In this document: piece by piece, positions 153 to 13,277 of the stretch
Layout: each line of letters begins with the position of its first letter
Position numbering within the stretch: position 1 is the stretch's first letter
Assembly: GCF_024346055.1 (NCBI RefSeq)
Contig: NZ_JAGQCH010000005.1
Location: forward strand, 62,001-126,000
DNA length: 64,000 nucleotides
Direction of reading: 5' to 3'
DNA from: Cyanobium sp. Cruz CV13-4-11
Lineage (GTDB): Bacteria; Cyanobacteriota; Cyanobacteriia; PCC-6307; Cyanobiaceae
Program-made: the position numbers and the translations under genes
The notes under the pieces: generated by a model
The model's database searches: none
The model's input: the letters and a program-made list of their open reading frames with translations, nothing else
What the model was told of the DNA's origin: nothing

Positions 153-434
153 TCAGAGGGGCTCGGCGCTCGAGACGAAGCCCACGCCGCCGTAGCGCTT
201 CAGCAGGGGGCGCAGGGCCTTGCCCACGGCGTCCAGCACGGCGTCCTCCACGAACACGATCACGTGGGCATTGGCCCCCAGCCCGCTGAAATCCATCCCC
301 TCCGAGATCTCCCCGGACGGCCCCATGCCCGTGACGTGCCGCATCACTGAATAGCCCTTGGCCCCGGCCGCGGTGATGGCCTTGCAGACGCGGTTCAACT
401 CCCGTTCGCTGAGAAACAGATCGATTCGCTTCAT
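153..434 (-). CDS. sbtB: SbtB, PII-like regulator of bicarbonate transporter SbtA
   Basis: A 93-residue PII-like protein. The family binds adenine nucleotides (cAMP, AMP, ADP, c-di-AMP) and docks on SbtA to control bicarbonate uptake. It starts MKRIDLF; residues about 40-55 (GMGPSGEISEGMDF) are the flexible T-loop region, and the hydrophobic strand AHVIVFV follows. It lies 46 bases downstream of sbtA on the same strand, the usual sbtA-sbtB order, so the two are probably cotranscribed. It ends at SSAEPL and lacks the paired-cysteine C-terminal extension known from several beta-cyanobacterial SbtB proteins. The call rests on family resemblance plus gene order. Confidence 0.88.
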   Translation of the reverse strand: MKRIDLFLSERELNRVCKAITAAGAKGYSVMRHVTGMGPSGEISEGMDFSGLGANAHVIVFVEDAVLDAVGKALRPLLKRYGGVGFVSSAEPL

Positions 435-480: not shown

Positions 481-1512
481 TCAGCCGACGGGGATGAAGT
501 GTCGGGTCAGCGCCATGTACAGGGGAATCCCGACAACCACATTGAAGGGGAAGGTGAGGCCCAGGGCCGTGGAGATGTAGAGGCTCGGGTTGGCCTGGGG
601 AACGGTCATACGCATCGCCGCCGGCACGGCGATGTAGGAGGCGCTGGCGCAGAGCACCATGAACAGCAGGGTGTTCCCCTGGCTCAGGCCCAGCAGGGCA
701 CTCACCAGCAGCCCCAACAGGGCATGCACGGGGGGGGCCAGCAGGGAGAAGCCGATCAGGAAGGCCCCTGTCTGGCGCAGGTCCCGCAGCCTCTGCGCCG
801 CCACGATGCCCATGTCGAGCAGGAAGAAGCAGAGGGCGCCGTAGAACAGTTTTTCGGTGAAGGGATCCATCTTTTCCAGCCCCGCCGGGCTGAAGGCGGC
901 CACCACATAGCCAATCACCAGGCTGCCGATCAACAGGTACACGGAACCGTTGAGAAAGGCCTCCTGGAGAACTTCCCGCCAGCGCAGACTGCCACTGCCC
1001 TCCTGATCCCCGCCGTTCTCTTGATCCCTGACGGACTCCGCATCTTCGGCAGGGGCCGAGAGCTTGGCCAGGATCACCCCCACCACGATCGCCGGCGATT
1101 CCATCAGGGCCAGGGCCGCCACCATGAAGCCGTCGAAGTTCACCTCGAGAACATTGAGGAAGCTCTCGGCGGTGATGAAGGTGACGGCACTGATGGAGCC
1201 GTAGGAGGCGGCGATGGCGGCGGCGTTGTAGCCATCCAGCCGCAGCCGCAGCAGCAGGAAGCTCGTGAGGGGCACCAGCAACGACATCACCACCGCCGCC
1301 CCGATCGTCAGCAACACCTGCGGGCCGAGGCCGCTGTGGGCCAGTTCCATGCCCCCTTTGAAGCCGATCGCCAGCAGGAGGTAAAGGGAGAAGAGCTTTG
1401 GCAGCGGTGAGGGGATCTCCAGGTCGGAGCCGACCAGAACACCGAGGATGCCCAGGAAGAAGAACAGCACCGGCGCTGAGAGCAGGTTCTGTAGGACCAG
1501 GCTCGACTGCAT
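481..1512 (-). CDS. sbtA: SbtA, sodium-dependent bicarbonate transporter
   Basis: A 343-residue inner-membrane protein with about ten hydrophobic helices in two similar halves, as expected of the SbtA family, which imports bicarbonate with sodium for the CO2-concentrating mechanism. The start at MQSSLVLQNLL is chosen because it leads straight into the first helix; an ATG ten codons upstream adds only a Pro/Arg-rich tail. A hydrophilic loop near residues 190-210 (acidic, Glu/Asp/Gly rich) separates the halves and corresponds to the cytoplasmic linker. sbtB follows, and csoS1D 5.5 kb away serves the same pathway. Slightly shorter than the usual roughly 370 residues. Confidence 0.93.
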   Translation of the reverse strand: MQSSLVLQNLLSAPVLFFFLGILGVLVGSDLEIPSPLPKLFSLYLLLAIGFKGGMELAHSGLGPQVLLTIGAAVVMSLLVPLTSFLLLRLRLDGYNAAAIAASYGSISAVTFITAESFLNVLEVNFDGFMVAALALMESPAIVVGVILAKLSAPAEDAESVRDQENGGDQEGSGSLRWREVLQEAFLNGSVYLLIGSLVIGYVVAAFSPAGLEKMDPFTEKLFYGALCFFLLDMGIVAAQRLRDLRQTGAFLIGFSLLAPPVHALLGLLVSALLGLSQGNTLLFMVLCASASYIAVPAAMRMTVPQANPSLYISTALGLTFPFNVVVGIPLYMALTRHFIPVG

Positions 1513-1747
1513 TGCCCTCCGGGGCCCAAAGGGTGGAGGCAACCTAGGGGCGATTCCGGCTGGCGAACGTCACCGGTCGCGCAATGTTGCCCGCCGTTTC
1601 GTCCGATCGGTGGCGAATTCCCTATCCTCCGCCCGGGGCAGGAACCCTGGAGTTCTCCGGGGGTGGAATGTTCAACCCGTCCTGCCCCACCCCTTCAGCG
1701 ACCTCCCTACCCCGCTGCACCACAATGGGGCCCCCCGTGGGCCCGGT
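1513..1747. promoter_or_regulatory. Divergent intergenic region sbtA / rdgB
   Basis: This 235-base gap separates the starts of sbtA (leftward) and rdgB (rightward) and must hold the sbtA promoter and probably the rdgB promoter. I see no convincing -35/-10 pair, no T-rich terminator and no small RNA signature. Low-carbon regulators of the LysR type control sbtA in other cyanobacteria, but I cannot point to a clear binding site here. Confidence 0.4.
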
Positions 1748-2356
1748 TTGTCCCTCTCCCCTTCCCGCCCGGTGCTGGTGATCGCCAGCGGCAACCCCCA
1801 CAAGGTGGCCGAGATCACGGCCATGCTCGAGGGTGTAGGTCCGGAGGTGGCTCTGGAGGTGCGGCAGCAGCCCAAGGGCCTGGAGATCGAGGAGACGGGC
1901 CTCACCTATGTGGAGAATGCGCGCCTGAAGGCCTCCACCGTGGCCTCCCTCACGGGCTGCTGGTCGCTGGCCGATGATTCGGGCCTGGAGGTAGATGCCC
2001 TCGATGGCCGCCCGGGTCTGCATTCGGCCCGCTATGCCCCCACCGACCACGAGAAGATTCACCGGCTGCTGCACGAGCTGGGGCCCACGCCCTATCGCAG
2101 CGCCAGTTTCAACAGCGCCATGGCCCTGGCCGATCCCAGCGGTACCACGGTGCTCGAGGCCGAGGGGATCTGCCGCGGCGAGATCCTTACCGCGCCCCAG
2201 GGCCATGGCGGCGGCTACGACCCGATCTTCTGGGTGCGGGAGGCGGGCCTGAGCTACGCCGAGCTCCCCGAGCACCTGCGCCATAAGCTGGGTAGCCGCG
2301 GCAAGGCGGCGCGGACGATGGCCCCCGGGCTCAGGCACTGGCTGGGGGTGGCCTGA
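1748..2356 (+). CDS. rdgB: RdgB/HAM1 non-canonical purine NTP pyrophosphatase
   Basis: About 202 residues. The enzyme hydrolyses dITP, ITP and XTP to monophosphates and so keeps deaminated purines out of DNA and RNA. The family signature ASGNPHKVAEI opens the protein, and SLADDSGLEVDAL (the metal/substrate loop) and GGYDPIFW follow in order. There is no ATG in a sensible position; TTG at 1748 gives MSLSPSRPVLVIASGN, while GTG at 1772 would start flush with the first strand. Length matches the family. The downstream signalling operon begins 46 bases later. Confidence 0.9.
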   Translation: MSLSPSRPVLVIASGNPHKVAEITAMLEGVGPEVALEVRQQPKGLEIEETGLTYVENARLKASTVASLTGCWSLADDSGLEVDALDGRPGLHSARYAPTDHEKIHRLLHELGPTPYRSASFNSAMALADPSGTTVLEAEGICRGEILTAPQGHGGGYDPIFWVREAGLSYAELPEHLRHKLGSRGKAARTMAPGLRHWLGVA

Positions 2357-2402: not shown

Positions 2403-3869
2403 GTGGTTCAGGGGCGTCGCTGGTTGGGTCTGCGGCTTATGCCGCGCATAGCTGGCGGCATCGGCAAACTGCGCCGGGTTCTGCTGCGGCCTGATGCCAT
2501 CCTCTGGCTGTTGCTGGCCTGCCTGTTGCTGCTGCCCGTGGTGGGGCTCAACGCGATCTCGAGCGCCACCATCAGCCAGATGCAGTTGCAGGCCCGGGAG
2601 GTCTCGACGCTGGCGTCGGGCATCCGCGCCTACTACGCCGACAATGTGATCGCCCGCCTGCAGGCCGCTGACGGCCAGGCGGTGTATTCCGAGAAGTACC
2701 GCGAGGTGCATGGCGGCATTCCGATTCCTGCCACCCTTTCCATTGAGCTGGGCGCCCTGTTTGACAACGCCCATACCGACGGGCGCATCTCCTATGAGTT
2801 CATCTCCGACTATCCCTTTGCCAATCGGGTATCCCGCAGGCTCGATCCCTTTGAGGGGCAGGCACTGGAGGCCTTCCGCAGCGACCCTGGCCTGAAGACC
2901 GTCACCAAGCTGGAAGGCAATGGCCTGGGGCGCTCCTCCTACCGCCTGGCCACCCCGGTGCTGATGCGTCAGGCCTGTGTGACCTGCCACAACGCCCATC
3001 CCGATTCGCCGAAGCGCGACTGGAAGCCGGGCGATGTGCGCGGCATCCAGGCGGTGACGGTGCGCGGCCTGCGCGTGGACGGCTTCGGCAACCTCGGTTA
3101 CTTGTTGGGCTACGTGGGGCTGCTGGGCGTGATCTCCGTCGGGGCGACAGGCGTCTTTCGGCATCAGAGCCTGCAGTTGAACAAGACGAACCGGCGGCTG
3201 GTGGAGGCCAATGCCCGCGAGTCGACGCTCTCGGCCCGCATGGCCGACCAAGTGCAGGAGCTCTCCATCTTCGGCACGGTCGTTGACCATTCCGTGGTGG
3301 GAATCGCCGTGGCCGACATGCGCCAGCCCGACAATCCGCTGGTGTACGTGAACCAGGCCTTCACGGCGATCACGGGCTATTCCAGGGCGCTGACCATCGG
3401 CTTCAACTGCCGCTTCCTGCAGGGCCCCGATACGGACCCCAAGGAGTTGGAGCGCCTTCGTCAGGCCATCCGCTCCGGGGCTCCCTACAGCGGTGAATTG
3501 ATCAACTACCGCCAGGACGGCAGCCGCTTCTGGAATCGCCTCACGCTGACGCCGGTGGGTGGCTCCAGCCGTGAGCAACCGGATTTCTATGTGGCCAATC
3601 AGGTGGATATCACCCGCCTCAAGGAGGAGGCCGGTGTGCCGCTGCGGGAGCTGCGTGCCCTGGAGGGAGAACTCCAGACGGCTGAGCAGGCCCTGAGCGA
3701 TGCTGCCCGCTTCGGTGACGCCCTGCAGCGCCAGATGGAGGCCGCGGGTGATCTCGCCTCCCTGCAGATGGAGGCGTTCCTGCGTTCGCAGCAGCAGGCC
3801 CTTGGTCAGCTCACCGAGGTGTTCGAGCGCATTGCCCAGCTGCTGCGAGAGCATCGCGACGCCGGATGA
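2403..3869 (+). CDS. Membrane sensor: heme-binding DUF3365 domain plus LOV domain plus coiled coil
   Basis: A 488-residue membrane sensor. Helix one (about residues 28-50) leads into an extracytoplasmic Tll0287/DUF3365-type domain with a c-type heme motif C192-V-T-C195-H196. A second helix (about 231-250) leads to a cytoplasmic PAS domain (about 289-405) carrying the LOV photoreceptor signature GFNCRFLQGPDTD, with the flavin-adduct cysteine at C336, then INYRQDG and FWN, the expected flavin-contacting positions. The last 80 residues are a heptad-rich coiled coil with no catalytic domain. The start is GTG at 2403 or ATG at 2439. The stop overlaps the next gene by ATGA, so output probably passes to the diguanylate cyclase downstream. 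Pairing a heme redox or gas input with blue light in one chain is unusual. Confidence 0.87.
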   Translation: MVQGRRWLGLRLMPRIAGGIGKLRRVLLRPDAILWLLLACLLLLPVVGLNAISSATISQMQLQAREVSTLASGIRAYYADNVIARLQAADGQAVYSEKYREVHGGIPIPATLSIELGALFDNAHTDGRISYEFISDYPFANRVSRRLDPFEGQALEAFRSDPGLKTVTKLEGNGLGRSSYRLATPVLMRQACVTCHNAHPDSPKRDWKPGDVRGIQAVTVRGLRVDGFGNLGYLLGYVGLLGVISVGATGVFRHQSLQLNKTNRRLVEANARESTLSARMADQVQELSIFGTVVDHSVVGIAVADMRQPDNPLVYVNQAFTAITGYSRALTIGFNCRFLQGPDTDPKELERLRQAIRSGAPYSGELINYRQDGSRFWNRLTLTPVGGSSREQPDFYVANQVDITRLKEEAGVPLRELRALEGELQTAEQALSDAARFGDALQRQMEAAGDLASLQMEAFLRSQQQALGQLTEVFERIAQLLREHRDAG

Positions 3870-5077
3870 AGGAGACGCGATCCCTGCACCGCCGAATGTC
3901 CAGCCAGCTGCTGCGCCTGCTGTTCGGCTACTGGCTGGGGGCCACGCTGCTGCTCACCCTGCTGCTCTCGTTGATCGACGTGTTGGAGCGTCACCGCGAG
4001 GTGATCCGCGCCGGTGAGCAGGCCAGCGAGGTCGTGGCCAGCTCCATGGCGGTGGTGATGCCGCCCGCTCTGCGCCAGAGCCTGGTGGAGGCCTATGGCA
4101 AAACCTCCGGGAGCAGGGGTGCCGATGACCTGAATCTGCTGCTGGTGCTGGATGGGGAGGGGCGCGTTGCGTACAGCTCCAGGCCTGCCTGGCGGACGCT
4201 GCCCATTGGCGATCCGGTGTTCTCCTTTCCCGAAACCAGCGATCCTGAATTCCGCGCGGTTGTCGACTGCTTTCGGCTGAATCGTGACGACTGCGGCCTG
4301 TTGCGATCCAGCAACATCAGGCTCGCCACCGACAGCCTGACGGTCATCAGGTCCGTGGAGATGGCGTCGCAGGATCTGGGCCTTCCCCGCCAACGCTTCC
4401 TGGTGGTGGTGAATTTCGACGCCGGCCTCATCTGGGTCCATCTGCTGGAGGACGTGCTGGTCTGGCTGCTGGTGTCGATGCTGTTCGCCACCCTGCTGGC
4501 GGGATTCTGCTGGCTGACCATCGCCATGCGGCTGCTGCCGCGGATGGCCGAGGAGGCCCAGACGGATGGCCTCACCGGATTGAGCAACCGCAACCACTTC
4601 ATGGAGCAGGCCATCACCCTGCTGGCCGCTGCCGAGGAGAGCCATGGCTCCTATGTGTTCGCCATCCTCGATATCGACCACTTCAAGCGCATCAACGACA
4701 CCTATGGCCACGGCTGTGGCGACGCGGCCCTGGTGGCCGTTGCCGGCGTGCTCAAGGCGGTGACCCGCCCCGAAGATCTGGTGTGTCGCTTCGGCGGCGA
4801 GGAGTTCGCCCTGCTGATCCCCGCCCCTAAGGAGGCCGGTCGCAGGGCGATGGAGCGGCTGCGGATTCAGCTGGAGACCAGTTCCGTGCTCTATGGCGGT
4901 CATCGCCTGTCGATCACGGCCAGCATCGGCGCCTTGGCCACAGCCGATAGCGGCTACAACATCGACTATCTCTATACCGTGGCGGACCGCGCCCTCTACC
5001 AGGCCAAGCAGGAGGGCCGCAACCGGGTTGTGTGGTTCGGCGGTGAGTCGATCTCGCTCCTGAGGCTGTCGCCATGA
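3866..5077 (+). CDS. Membrane diguanylate cyclase (GGEEF)
   Basis: A 403-residue protein likely to make c-di-GMP from two GTP. A helix at about residues 17-38, an extracytoplasmic region to about 190, and a second helix (about 193-215) precede a GGDEF domain that opens with DGLTGLSNR. The active signature is G310-G-E-E-F314, preceded five residues upstream by an RPED (RxxD) inhibitory site, so product feedback is expected. It overlaps both neighbours by four bases (ATGA), so the three genes form one translationally coupled unit. The sensory half matches no domain I recognise, so its ligand is unknown. Confidence 0.9.
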   Translation: MKETRSLHRRMSSQLLRLLFGYWLGATLLLTLLLSLIDVLERHREVIRAGEQASEVVASSMAVVMPPALRQSLVEAYGKTSGSRGADDLNLLLVLDGEGRVAYSSRPAWRTLPIGDPVFSFPETSDPEFRAVVDCFRLNRDDCGLLRSSNIRLATDSLTVIRSVEMASQDLGLPRQRFLVVVNFDAGLIWVHLLEDVLVWLLVSMLFATLLAGFCWLTIAMRLLPRMAEEAQTDGLTGLSNRNHFMEQAITLLAAAEESHGSYVFAILDIDHFKRINDTYGHGCGDAALVAVAGVLKAVTRPEDLVCRFGGEEFALLIPAPKEAGRRAMERLRIQLETSSVLYGGHRLSITASIGALATADSGYNIDYLYTVADRALYQAKQEGRNRVVWFGGESISLLRLSP

Positions 5078-7041
5078 CGGGGATGCAGGAACCCGCGATT
5101 CCGGCCGATGAGCACGCCAGGTTGCTGGACCTCTACAGCCTGGGCGTCCTCGATACGGGTGCGGACGCCCGCTTCGATGACATCAGCGAGTTGGCGCGGC
5201 GCATCGCCGGCACGGAGATCGCCATCATCAGCCTGGTGGATGCCAACCGCCAGTGGTTCAAGAGCTGCGTGGGTGTGCCCCTGGCCCAGGAGGAGACGCC
5301 GCGCCGCATCTCCTTCTGCGGCCACACGATCCTGCAGCGCGATCCGATGATCGTGGATGACTGTCTGGAGGATCCCCGCTTCGCCGGCAATCCCCTGGTG
5401 AGCGGTGAGCCCCATATCCGCTTCTATGCCGGCTTTCCGCTGATCACCACCAGGAGCTTCGCGGTGGGGAGTCTGTGTGTGATCAGCCGCGAGCCGCACC
5501 AGCTCGATCAGCAGCAGATCGACAGCCTCACGCGGCTGACCCTGCTCACCGTAGGCCTGCTGGAGGGAAGACCCGACGCCGGCCGTCCGGCCGGCCGCAC
5601 GCTGGGCCAGGAACCGAAGCGCCGGGGTGAGGCTTCCCCCAGGCGCCTGAGCTCCCTGGAGCGCCTGATCAGTCGCGATCAGATGGTGCAGAGGCTGGAT
5701 CTGCTGTTCACGATGGATGTCGGCGCCCCCTTCGCCGTGATGCGCTGCCGCTTCCGCGATTACGAGCGGATCAACGCCACCCTGGGCGGCAGGGTGGCCG
5801 AAGACTTCATCAATGAAGCGGCACGGAGGATGTTCGCAGCCCTCCCCAGGGCCGCCACCATCGCCCGCTTTGCCGATGCCGAACTGGTGGTGTTGCTGCC
5901 CTTCCAGCAGGATCAGCCCGCCGTGGAGCAGCTGGCGGAACGGGTGATCGCCTTCAGCGGCCAGCCCTATCGCAGCGGCTCCCAGGCCCTGTCGATGGGG
6001 GTGGCCATCGGCCTTGCCATCTGCCGCCAGAACGATCAGAACGCCGAGACGATTCTGGCTGATACCAGCATGGCGCTGCGGATGGCGAGCCGCCGCACGG
6101 CCAGTGCCTGCTGCCTGATCGATGCGGAGGCCCGCGTGGCTGCCCAGCAGATCTATCGGCTGGAATCGGATTTCCGCGATGCCGTGGCCCGCAAGCTGCT
6201 GGTGCCCTACCTGCAGCCGATCGTGGACCTCGCCAGCAGCGAAACCGTGGGCTTTGAGGCCCTGGCGCGCTGGCCCCAGAACGGCGAGGTGCTGCAGCCG
6301 AGCCACTTCCTGCCGCTGGCCCTCGAGACCGGCCTGACCGGCGAACTCGACCTGCTGATCCTGGAGAAGGCCCTGGCGGCGCTGCCGTTGCTGGCCCAGC
6401 CGATTCCGCGCCAGGAGATGACGATGAGCGCCAATCTCTCCGGCACGCTGCTGGAGGATCCCCAGCTGCGCGAACGGCTGCTCAACCTCATTGACGAGAC
6501 GCCGATTCCGCCGGGCTGGACCCTGCAGGTGGAGCTTGTGGAGGACATCTTTCAATACACGGATGCGGCCTTTGATCAGTTCCTTGATGCCCTGGCGCAC
6601 CGCGGCGTGAGGATTGCCCTGGACGACTTCGGCACCGGCTATTCCTCGCTGGCCCGACTGCTCTCCCTGCCGATTCAGATCGTCAAGGTCGATCAGACCT
6701 TCGTGACCCGCCTCAGTGGACAGCAGGATTCACCCCGCACCCTGCTGCGCACCATGCTCACGATGGTGCAGGATCTGGGGCTGGCGACGATCGCCGAGGG
6801 CGTCGACTGTGGCGACCAGCGTGACTGGCTGCTGCAGAACGGTGTGGCCAAGGCCCAGGGCTACCTGTTCTCCCCGCCGGTCTCGGTTTCCGAGGCGATT
6901 GAACAGCTGCAGCGGCAGGAGTTCCGTCCCCCGGCGATTCCCGTGGAAGCCAGTCGCCTGCGGGCCCTGCGCCGCCGTCTGCCGGGGCGTTCCTGGGCCG
7001 CTGATCTGCTGGGGCGTTTCAGGCGCCGGCGCCGGCGTTGA
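5074..7041 (+). CDS. GAF - degenerate GGDEF - EAL c-di-GMP phosphodiesterase
   Basis: 655 residues, soluble. The N-terminal GAF domain (about 15-165) may bind a small molecule or chromophore, but no bilin cysteine motif is evident. The middle GGDEF-like domain (about 205-350) has ADAEL where GGDEF should be, so it is not a cyclase and may act as a GTP-sensing or structural domain. The EAL domain (about 370-625) keeps E395-A-L, D517-D-F-G-T-G, K538-V-D and E575-G-V, so hydrolysis of c-di-GMP to pGpG is expected. It pairs synthesis (previous gene) with breakdown in one operon. The arginine-rich tail exists because its 3' end overlaps csoS1D on the other strand by 23 bases. Confidence 0.9.
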
Positions 7042-7819
7042 TCTGGGCCACGGCGCGCATGGCGGCGGCGGCGGCCTCCTCCACATCGCCCTCCTTGCCC
7101 GCCAGGGTGAGGCGGCCGAAGGCACCGACGGCCTTGACGTCGACCACGGTGATGTTGGAGCCCTTCTCCGCCTCATTGGCGGCGATCAGCACGTAGCCGG
7201 CCGGCTCGGTCTCGAGGATGAACATGCTCATGCCGGCCTGGATCATCGAACCGCGGCGGTTCTGGCGGTTGATCAGCACGGCATGGTCGGGGGTGATCGC
7301 CCGGATGATCTCGGTCCAGGTCACCTCACAGCGGCTGCGCAGCTCCACCCGGCTGCCGATGGCCTCCAGCACCACGTCACCGGAGTGGAGCACATTGCTC
7401 TGGTCCCGGTGGTAGAGGGCCAGGGAGCCGAAGGCCCGCTCCACCACCATCTGGCCGAGCCGCACCGTGCTGGCCTTCAGGGCAATGTCGGTGACCCGGT
7501 GCACCGCCATGCCCGGGGACACCTCCAGCCAGAGGCAGGCATCGCCGGGAATCGGCAGGAAGCCATGGGACACCGTGCCCATGTAGGACGCCAGCTGGGG
7601 CTGGAGCGAATCCAGGAAGACGTAGGTGCGCAGCTCGATCGACTGCACGTGGCTCGACTGGCGCGCCAGGCGCCTGCCCTCGCTGTCGGTGGTGATCACG
7701 CAGCTGGCCCCGGAGGCCTCGCCGCTCACATCGGTGCCGGTGATGCGGAGGTTCGCCGTCCTTCTCCTGGCGTCCGACCGGTCGTCGCGAAGGAAGGAAC
7801 GGGCAGCCTGCGAATCCAT
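7019..7819 (-). CDS. csoS1D: CsoS1D, tandem-BMC alpha-carboxysome shell protein
   Basis: 266 residues from ATG at 7819; a GTG at 7900 would add 27 poorly ordered residues. Two circularly permuted BMC domains follow a roughly 55-residue leader. The first contains [18 protein letters not shown] and [15 protein letters not shown]; the second contains [17 protein letters not shown] and [17 protein letters not shown]. CsoS1D forms trimers that stack into double layers with a large gated pore, thought to let metabolites through the alpha-carboxysome shell. This protein is the main reason to place the organism among alpha-cyanobacteria. No other cso gene is in the window. Confidence 0.92.
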
Positions 7820-7949
7820 CACGGCGCCAGGCGCCAACTCCCGGAAAGGACGATCGTCTCGATCACCGGGGGGTGAAGCACCGGGATCCCTGGTTGCCAC
7901 CGATGGCAGTCCAGGACTGGAGGGTACTCCCCCCCGGGGCGGCAGCGGC

Positions 7950-8510
7950 CTAATGACTGCTCAGGGCAAGGGCATCGGCGGCGCGCACCCGGTCGCCGGC
8001 GTCGTGGCCGAAGCTGTCGATGACCTGCTTGCCATGGTCGGAATCCAGTTCGATCAGGGAGTCGCTGGCGGGCAGCTTCCCCTCCTCCAGGGTTCGACGG
8101 TTGGCCAGGCCCGTGTGTGGATCGCAGAGGGCAGTGGTGTTGCGGGCGGCCACCTCGTGGGTCTCCCGTCGCTGGGGGTGTCGAAAGACCTCAGCCAGCC
8201 GGGGCAGGGCGGCGCAAATGTCGGGGGCGGAGTGGTGACAGACGAGCCAGCGGATGGCGCCCAGATCGATGTTGGCGCGGAGTTTGGCGAGGGTGCCTTG
8301 GTTGGTGAACGGCGAACCCGGATCGATCAGCACGCCGTCCGAACCGTTGGCAATGACAGAGGTGTGGCACTGGAAATGGTCACTCGCCAGACGCACTCCA
8401 ACCCACCACACACCGGGGGCGATTTCTATGGGCTCTTCCCGTGATGCCGTCGCGTCGAACCGGGGGTACGCAGCGGAATGGTCGCGGGGCCGATGGAGAG
8501 AACGCTCCAT
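7950..8510 (-). pseudogene. Collapsed relic of an ODP/MBL-GGDEF signalling protein
   Basis: About 186 codons from ATG at 8510. The first half matches the N-terminus of an oxygen-binding di-iron metallo-beta-lactamase-fold (ODP) domain: APGVWWVGVRLASDHFQCHT, VLIDPGSPF, and the HHSAPDICAALPRLAEVF stretch. It then jumps to the start of a GGDEF domain (DPHTGLANRRTLEE, then LIELDSDHGKQVIDSFGHDAGD) and stops before the GGDEF signature. Most of the MBL fold, part of the region between the two GGDEF motifs and the entire catalytic half are missing. The frame is open, but neither domain can fold normally, so this looks like a gene reduced by deletions. A tiny repurposed protein is less likely. Confidence 0.7.
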
Positions 8511-8671
8511 GGGGACGGGGTAGAGGCACTGCGCGCTGGCACGGAAATGTGCGCGTAGAGCAGGGACTTCCATCCTGCGTTGATTCTGCTTGAGGCGGGC
8601 TTCAGAGCCCAGAGACCTTGCGAGACCGATGGCAACCGATACCTTCCGGTACAACCTTCCCAGGCGCGACC

Positions 8672-10554: not shown

Positions 10555-12249
10555 ATGGAACTGACCCTCTGGACTTACGAAGGCCCCCCCCACGTCGGGG
10601 CCATGCGCATCGCCACCTCCATGGAGGGGGTGCATTACGTGCTCCATGCCCCCCAGGGCGACACCTACGCCGACCTGCTGTTCACGATGATCGAGCGGCG
10701 GGGCCTGCGTCCTCCCGTCACCTACACCACGTTCCAGGCCAGGGATCTGGGCGGTGACACCGCCGAGCTGGTGCAGCGCTCGATCCGCCAGGCCGTCGAG
10801 CGCTTCCAGCCCGAAGCATTGCTGGTGGGGGAAAGCTGCACCGCCGAATTGATCCAGGACCAGCCCGGCGCCCTGGCCGCCGGCATGAACCTGGGGGTGC
10901 CGATGGTGAACCTGGAGTTGCCGGCCTATTCCAAGAAGGAGAACTGGGGAGCGGCCGAAACCTTCTACCAGCTGGTCCGCACCCTGCTCAAGAGCCAGCT
11001 GCCTGCCCCTGGTACCGCCAAGCCCTCCCCGTCCCGCTGGCGCGACGAGGGCCGCCGGCCGAGGGTCAACCTGCTGGGTCCCAGCCTGCTCGGCTTCCGC
11101 TGCCGCGACGACGTGCTGGAGATCACCCGGCTGCTGGCCGAGCACGGCATCGATGTGGCGGTGGTGGCGCCCCTGGGGGCCCGGCCCGCCGATCTGCTGC
11201 GCATCCCCACGGCCGATGCCAACGTCTGCCTCTACCCGGAGGTGGCGGGGCCGGTGTGCAGCTGGCTGGAGCGAAGCTTCGGCACCCCGGTGGTGCGCAC
11301 GGTGCCAATCGGCATCGGCGCCACCGCCGCCTTCCTGCGGGAGCTGCACGGCGTGCTCGACCTGGCGCTGCCGGCCGAGCTGCAGGAGGTGGAGGGGCAG
11401 CCGAGCGAGGCCGAGCGCCGCTCCCGGCTGCCCTGGTACTCCAGGTCGGTGGATTCCACCTACCTCACCGGCAAGCGGGTGTTCATCTTCGCCGATGCCA
11501 CCCACGCCATCGCCGCCGCCCGGATCGCCTCCAAGGAACTGGGCTTCCAGGTGGTGGGTCTGGGCAGCTACAGCCGTGAGCAGGCCAGGGAGGTGCGGGC
11601 CGCGGCCGCCGAGCTGGGCCTGGAGGCCCTGATCACCGACGACTACCTGGTGGTGGAGAAGGCCATGGGCGAGGCGGCGGCCGAGCTGGTGCTCGGCACC
11701 CAGATGGAACGGCACAGCGCCAAGCGGCTGGGCCTGCCCTGTGCGGTGATCAGCGCCCCCCTGCATGTTCAGGACGTGCCGGCCCGTTACTCCCCCCAGA
11801 TGGGCTGGGAGGGGGCCAACGTGATCTTCGACTCCTGGGTGCACCCGCTGATGATGGGCCTGGAGGAGCACCTGATCGGGATGTTCCGCCACGACTTCGA
11901 GTTCGTCGACGGCCACCGCAGCCACCTGGGCGACGGCGCACCGGCGGCGGCCTCGGGCGCCGACCACGAGGGCCCCACAGCAACGGCCCCGACTCCGACG
12001 CCGGCCAGAGCCTCGGCTTCCGTTGGCGCCACCGCCGCCCCGGCCCCGGGCACCACCACGGCCGCCGCCGCCGTGCGGGAGGCGCTCGAAAGCCTCTGGA
12101 CGGCCGACGGGGAGGCGGAACTCGCCAAGATCCCCTTCTTCGTGCGGGGCAAAGTGCGTAAGAACACCGAAGCCTTTGCCCGTGAGCGGGGCCTGGAGAG
12201 GATCGATGCCGAAGCCCTCTACGACGCCAAGGCCCACTTCAGCCGTTGA
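10555..12249 (+). CDS. chlB: ChlB, dark-operative protochlorophyllide reductase subunit B
   Basis: 564 residues. It partners ChlN and supplies the fourth cluster ligand, an aspartate: Asp36 falls in [12 protein letters not shown] exactly where BchB Asp36 is known. [16 protein letters not shown] and the substrate-binding core follow. A low-complexity Ala/Pro/Thr linker (about residues 460-505) joins the core to the C-terminal DPOR domain ([18 protein letters not shown]). The linker makes it longer than the roughly 510-residue norm. The gene lies between chlN and chlL in one operon. Confidence 0.96.
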
Positions 12250-12308
12250 GGGCCTCTCTGGCGATGTTTCGGTTTGCGTGATCCCCCGACAGCCGGGATC
12301 CGAAATGA

Positions 12309-13277
<969 letters not shown>

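Follow-up and report, generated by a model that had tools for sequence, protein, structure and literature searches.

A predicted heme-LOV receptor encoded with two cyclic di-GMP enzymes beside inorganic-carbon genes in Cyanobium

To characterize a candidate signaling operon of Cyanobium sp. Cruz CV13-4-11, we analyzed a 64,000-nucleotide stretch of contig NZ_JAGQCH010000005.1, here called the window, which belongs to an assembly of 52 contigs totaling 3.41 Mb. Three genes, named A, B, and C, lie on its plus strand between positions 2403 and 7041. They encode a predicted heme-LOV receptor, a cyclic di-GMP (c-di-GMP) synthase, and a c-di-GMP phosphodiesterase. Their order is kept in related genomes, and in the window's clade the unit is mostly found next to or within genes of inorganic-carbon acquisition. 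Genomes and loci are referred to by G and L numbers where they have to be told apart. The features of the three genes are as follows:

2403..3869, plus strand: gene A, receptor of 488 amino acids (aa) with the order sCache_heme (Tll0287-like), membrane helix, LOV, coiled coil (Pfam, solved relatives, model)
2490..2561, plus strand: first membrane helix of A, approximately residues 30-53 (hydropathy; helix 30-88 in the model)
2568..3062, plus strand: PF11845 Tll0287-like/sCache_heme domain of A, residues 56-220 (Pfam)
2976..2990, plus strand: c-type heme motif C192-V-T-C195-H196 of A (CxxCH at 18/18 loci)
3093..3158, plus strand: second membrane helix of A, approximately residues 231-252 (hydropathy)
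3279..3614, plus strand: LOV domain of A, approximately residues 293-404 (Pfam, sequence and structure relatives)
3408..3410, plus strand: predicted LOV adduct cysteine C336 of A (18/18 loci, as are N368, N378, and Q400)
3624..3866, plus strand: C-terminal helices of A, residues 408-488, without output domain and the least conserved part of A (model, identity profile)
3866..5077, plus strand: gene B, membrane diguanylate cyclase of 403 aa with an extracytoplasmic region between two membrane helices (Pfam, hydropathy, model)
4556..5026, plus strand: GGDEF domain of B, residues 231-387, with GGEEF and an RPED I-site (Pfam, motif reading, structure match)
5074..7041, plus strand: gene C, GAF - degenerate GGDEF - EAL phosphodiesterase of 655 aa (Pfam, motif reading)
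5167..5538, plus strand: GAF domain of C, residues 32-155 (Pfam)
6169..6879, plus strand: EAL domain of C, residues 366-602, with the signature positions present (Pfam, motif reading)

A preliminary description of this DNA, made from its letters alone, had proposed three frames joined by two ATGA overlaps, and both 4-base overlaps are present as described. The GTG at 2403 taken as the start of A is unproven; an in-frame ATG follows at 2439. The heme motif that had been placed outside the membrane was recovered as CVTCH at residues 192-196, between the predicted membrane helices. Hydropathy segments at 25-58 and 231-252 flank the heme domain, which is thus predicted to be extracytoplasmic. PF11845 was matched at residues 56-220 with an E value of 7.6e-19 and 69 bits against a curated cutoff of 24.1. 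Close sequence homology of this domain to Tll0287 was rejected, because a single-sequence search returned nothing and a profile of the heme part reached only an E value of 0.98 against structure 5B82. The assignment of the heme domain therefore rests on Pfam. The AlphaFold2 model of A (mean predicted local distance difference test score [pLDDT] 71.5, predicted template modeling score [pTM] 0.39) supported the LOV fold and was weak for the heme domain; the structures listed by the searches were LOV domains, so the lack of a Cache match among them carries no weight.

The LOV domain itself was readily identified. Pfam placed PAS_9 at residues 308-404, phototropin LOV1 (E 6.9e-27) and YtvA were the best solved relatives, and the structure search gave Z scores of up to 18.5 against LOV structures. 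The NCRFLQ motif occupies residues 335-340, and the GFNCRFLQ context of C336, already pointed out in the preliminary description, is canonical. In all 18 A proteins CxxCH, N335-C336-R337, N368, N378, and Q400 were kept; we take the last three to be flavin-contact positions. Mean pairwise identity reached 0.75 for the heme domain and 0.65 for the LOV domain, and fell to 0.27 for the C-terminal coil. As proposed earlier, A ends in this coil (helices 408-488) with no output domain. Together, these data predict a protein that carries a canonical LOV domain on the cytoplasmic side of the membrane and a c-type heme Cache domain outside, each binding its cofactor.

Besides CxxCH, no cysteine of the heme domain was conserved among the 18 proteins, and A thus lacks a conserved counterpart of the axial cysteine of redox-type members. 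This separates types within the family and does not speak against membership of A. A fused signaling member without this cysteine binds nitric oxide (NO) tightly and does not hold O2, while a stand-alone member looks redox-type (PMC12889525). Since the conserved axial cysteine is missing, NO or another small ligand is our better guess for A, and a redox input comes second. The earlier suggestion of a redox-or-gas input was thus shifted toward the NO-binding, fused type.

The cyclase assignment of B was confirmed. Its GGDEF domain was detected with an E value of 1.2e-43 and reads RPED-x5-GGEEF, which places the RxxD I-site five residues ahead of GGEEF. GGEEF was found in 16/16 B proteins read and the I-site in 13/16; it is missing from G272b, G213, and G247. 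The AlphaFold2 model of B (mean pLDDT 81.0, pTM 0.48) supported the GGDEF fold. In the model, the extracytoplasmic part has an order of helix plus strands and could be a Cache-like domain, although the models of A and B are of little informative value for this part and for the interface between the proteins. In G254, gene B is broken into two frames that overlap (L044 6844-8063, minus strand), by a frameshift or an assembly error.

For C, the predicted EAL domain (E 1.7e-56) and the dead GGDEF domain (FADAEL) were both borne out, and the GAF domain at residues 32-155 had been overlooked. Loose patterns were used for the EAL signature. All seven were present in the window's C; across the 15 C proteins, E, N, DD, E, and Q were found in 15, the third-E pattern in 14, and the K pattern in 10. 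An intact GG[DE]EF was found in 0/15. The GAF motif of the window's C was detected in 10/15. The five proteins without the K pattern all fall outside the window's clade, and so do the five without the GAF motif.

We surveyed the distribution of the unit with A. Among 400 genomes of the window's family (E ≤ 1e-40, three candidates scored per genome), close relatives of A were found at 18 loci in 15 genomes and 4 of 59 genera. When every candidate was scored, 6 of 42 genomes of the window's own genus and 4 of 25 of the genus of G205 had matches. The A relatives at the loci are 49-93% identical to the window's A. Synechococcus sp. GreenBA-s is the named near-relative, with an A protein 93% identical; this strain and G205 were counted once. 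B follows A at 17/17 readable loci, and C follows B on the same strand at 16/17. The lone exception is L056, with a distant EAL protein on the opposite strand; at the G035 locus the contig stops after A, leaving no readable B or C. Spacing, measured in 12 loci, ranged from -31 to +13 bases between A and B and from -122 to +12 bases between B and C. Thus, the idea that the window genome is peculiar in its ATGA-joined order was rejected, and the consistent separation of the three genes that the preliminary description had named as counterevidence was not found. Because order and motifs are kept around proteins 49-93% identical to A, the operon is more than a chance arrangement.

A phylum survey of 386 genomes (threshold 1e-25, four candidates scored per genome) gave A matches in 89. 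Among the matches listed, only two, both from the window's own genus, span both domains; the rest match the heme or the LOV part alone. A sCache_heme-LOV fusion common in cyanobacteria was therefore rejected, since among the matches listed none from outside the window's family spans both domains. A separate search with A also detected no such fusion outside the family among its relatives. The nearest other cyanobacterial matches to the heme part that were opened, L007 1363-2919 and L008 1462-2967, are PF11845-HNOBA-class III nucleotide cyclase proteins, combining the same heme input with a different second messenger. Two Planctomycetota matches are kinase-PF11845 proteins.

The preliminary description had overlooked the link of the operon to inorganic-carbon uptake genes, which points to a physiological context. 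The following neighbors were identified in the window:

153..434, minus strand: open reading frame (ORF) of 93 aa at the sbtB position, adjoining sbtA, without an NCBIfam match and presumably sbtB (position)
481..1542, minus strand: sbtA, Na+-dependent bicarbonate transporter, PF05982, E 6.2e-120 (Pfam)
1448..2356, plus strand: rdgB/HAM1 ORF (PF01725), with its stop 46 bases before A on the same strand (ORF list, Pfam)
7019..7900, minus strand: carboxysome-shell (bacterial microcompartment, BMC) protein, convergent with C, which we take to be csoS1D (ORF list, Pfam, position)

The 3' ends of C and of the convergent csoS1D-like gene share 23 bases (7019-7041). Beyond this gene, at 7950-8654 on the minus strand, a metallo-beta-lactamase-like (ODP) domain precedes a GGDEF domain of which only the first part, approximately 50 residues, is present, and this gene looks degraded or truncated.

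Clustering of the neighbors across loci raised recurrent genes, and curated models named ndhF3_CO2 (673 bits against a cutoff of 588.7), chpXY (732 against 293.7), and BicA (900.5 and 894.5 against 880). SbtA was assigned by PF05982. We named ndhD3 by position, as only the general NDH_I_M model was above its cutoff, and likewise cupS, the model match of which is Fasciclin. The carbon gene set (chpXY, BicA, SbtA, and BMC genes) was located genome-wide in 15 genomes. At 10/11 readable loci of the window's clade, the operon lies no more than 6.8 kb from one of these genes, while the share of a genome within 8 kb of them is 1.3-2.7%. G283 was excluded from this count because its contig has only 3,180 bases.

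The exact place of the operon differs between the genomes. In G020, G029, and G342, it stands between ndhF3 and ndhD3 on one strand; in G254, it is directly upstream of ndhF3, and in G275 and G035 downstream of cupS. It is 6-7 kb from bicA in G195, which is without the ndhF3-type chpXY, and in G272. In the window genome and G205, rdgB and csoS1D flank it and sbtA-sbtB come next; the ndhF3-type chpXY of the window genome is found on a different contig. At loci with the operon in another place, the gap between ndhF3 and ndhD3 is 38-124 bases (4/4 loci). Similarly, the distance from sbtA to csoS1D is 0.85-2.6 kb in 11/13 genomes and 5.5-5.6 kb in the other two, the window genome and G205, which carry the operon in this gap. 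In two of the genomes with a split ndhF3-ndhD3, an extra GGDEF protein is encoded right past cupS (L022 3782-6040 and L023 14431-15906, both plus strand); it is CHASE-PAS-GGDEF in one genome and Cache-GGDEF in the other.

How many independent placements this linkage represents was assessed with a tree of A. The twelve members of the clade were grouped (96/96), as were the three ndhF3-ndhD3 loci (100/100), the two csoS1D loci (100/100), and G275, G035, G283, and G272a (99/98); the placement of the long-branched L056 is unsure. If the loci are taken as independent, the chance of 10/11 is P ~6e-17; as the loci are related, this value greatly overstates the case. With no more than two or three independent placements, the chance is ~4e-4 to 7e-6. 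Since the exact place has changed and carbon genes have nevertheless stayed nearby, the pattern suggests selection for co-expression or a common function.

Starting from the observed domains, conserved motifs, gene order, and genomic context, we propose that the operon encodes a two-input receptor, A, and its two effectors, B and C. A would respond to blue light as well as to a gas or redox state, and both states would reach its C-terminal coiled coil. Since A lacks an output domain, it would probably act in trans on B and C, encoded in the same operon. Separate heme sensors that act on diguanylate cyclases or cyclase-phosphodiesterase proteins are known from SwH-NOX/SwDGC and from Hnox1/Lpg1057 of Legionella (PMC8846402). 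B would make c-di-GMP and be product-inhibited via its I-site; C would break it down and have its own input through GAF. In the window's clade, the unit has stayed beside or within high-affinity carbon genes (ndhF3-ndhD3-cupA-cupS, bicA, or the sbtA/carboxysome locus), which makes its expression along with carbon acquisition probable. Blue light and gas or redox state would then be coupled to carbon supply through c-di-GMP. We give the model as a whole, with a heme-plus-LOV receptor steering a cyclase and a phosphodiesterase in trans, expression together with carbon acquisition, and the resulting coupling to carbon supply, an even chance of being right.

Several observations weigh against this model. 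Conservation within A is lowest in the C-terminal coil, through which the contacts would presumably be made, and the A protein of L056 stops shortly after the LOV domain. The 8-kb distance cut and the carbon gene set were picked after the neighbors had been seen. Carbon neighbors are missing at G296, the exception within the clade, and 0/6 loci outside the clade have carbon genes on their contigs; thus, the module as such does not need the carbon link. In G205 the ndhF3 operon itself is beside csoS1D, and five gene families in the flanks are common to G254 and G195. With the tree groupings, this makes it possible that a single ancient linkage was kept through rearrangements.

Some of these observations support a reading in which the heme/LOV c-di-GMP module is real and serves usual outputs, such as aggregation, biofilm, pili, or polysaccharide, with the carbon neighborhood as a favored or inherited insertion place of no functional meaning. 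G296 and the six other loci without carbon neighbors, as well as a possible single ancestral event, fit this reading, as does the fact that c-di-GMP in cyanobacteria is mostly linked to light-dependent motility and aggregation (PMC10117731). It also gains from the PilZ proteins described below, which are present in 14/15 genomes, with one near A in two of them. However, the operon has moved relative to ndhF3, ndhD3, and cupS and yet remains with carbon genes; in three genomes it splits an otherwise tight same-strand operon, and the window genome has it at sbtA/csoS1D, with the ndhF3-type chpXY located on a different contig. We therefore regard a purely conventional output as a serious but rather unlikely explanation.

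Two other readings concern A itself, and we hold each to be improbable. The LOV domain could be a flavin redox or structural relay in a heme-gas or redox sensor and not a light sensor, because LOV proteins can signal by flavin reduction without the adduct (PMC5645311) and the heme in the same protein is a possible redox partner. A pure redox role, however, would not need the adduct cysteine and the flavin-contact positions, which are kept in 18/18 proteins. Alternatively, the three proteins could share a promoter and signal separately, B by its extracytoplasmic region, C by GAF, and A via a partner yet to be named. The sensory regions of B and C and the poorly conserved coil of A would agree with this, whereas the missing output domain of A and the order and tight spacing kept across the loci examined argue against it.

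ComFB, a c-di-GMP receptor tied to SyCRP1 (PMC13249358), was rejected as the effector, as it was found in 0/15 genomes; the ComFB-SyCRP1 route to carbon genes is thus unavailable, which weakens the proposed coupling. PilZ proteins were detected in 14/15. They are typical c-di-GMP receptors, and with ComFB absent the receptors here would be PilZ or unknown proteins. In the two genomes with shared flanking genes, a PilZ protein is encoded 1.6-2.7 kb from A and could be a receptor for the module:

G254:C23:21177-21485 (L044 ~12178-12486): PilZ protein near A in G254
G195:C1:2478089-2478403 (L045 ~6090-6404): PilZ protein near A in G195

Control of carbon uptake by cyclic AMP and cyclic di-AMP through SbtB is already described. 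More tentatively, and with doubts that outweigh our confidence, the operon may be a dedicated second-messenger controller of inorganic-carbon acquisition in alpha-cyanobacteria, in which a receptor for blue light and for gas or lumen/periplasm redox sets c-di-GMP and thereby tunes CO2/bicarbonate uptake or carboxysome function. If the linkage to carbon genes is functional, c-di-GMP gains a role in the CO2-concentrating mechanism, a role not named in the available parts of the reviews PMC10117731 and PMC13249358. The operon could moreover be tested as a logic gate that controls c-di-GMP by light plus gas.

Each part of the proposed system resembles something known. A shares with the sCache_heme family (PF11845, DUF3365/Tll0287; PMC12889525) the PF11845 domain, CxxCH, an extracytoplasmic position according to hydropathy, the membrane anchor, and the fusion to a signaling part, and like Target 2 of that study it is without the axial cysteine. 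It differs in its cytoplasmic partner, a LOV domain without an enzyme, kinase, or methyl-accepting chemotaxis protein (MCP) output; a term search did not find the word LOV in the main text of PMC12889525. SL2 of Synechococcus elongatus (LOV-GGDEF-EAL; PMC8846402) is likewise a case of cyanobacterial blue-light control of c-di-GMP turnover by LOV, but there LOV and enzymes form one chain without heme, whereas here three proteins are encoded and the receptor has a heme domain. The LOV-activated diguanylate cyclase of PDB 8C05 is matched by the LOV domain of A (Z 18.4 over 122 residues) and by the GGDEF domain of B (Z 20.3 over 154), which are joined in one polypeptide there and belong to separate proteins here.

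Unlike the heme domain of A, to which it is unrelated, H-NOX is cytoplasmic, binds heme non-covalently, and comes without a light input. With a stand-alone heme sensor and a separate c-di-GMP enzyme, the SwH-NOX/SwDGC and Hnox1/Lpg1057 pairs provide the most likely working model for the operon (PMC8846402). The DosC-DosP (dgcO-pdeO) operon of Escherichia coli also encodes a heme-tuned cyclase together with an EAL phosphodiesterase; in contrast to our operon, each enzyme has its own heme domain, and neither LOV nor a separate receptor is present (PMC8846402). In the literature searched, we found no description of a receptor that joins a covalent-heme Cache domain to LOV, has no output domain, and shares its operon with a cyclase and a phosphodiesterase, in agreement with the preliminary description. 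While the single parts are of known kind, what is new is that one receptor combines these domains, that the enzymes are separate proteins, and that the unit neighbors carbon genes.

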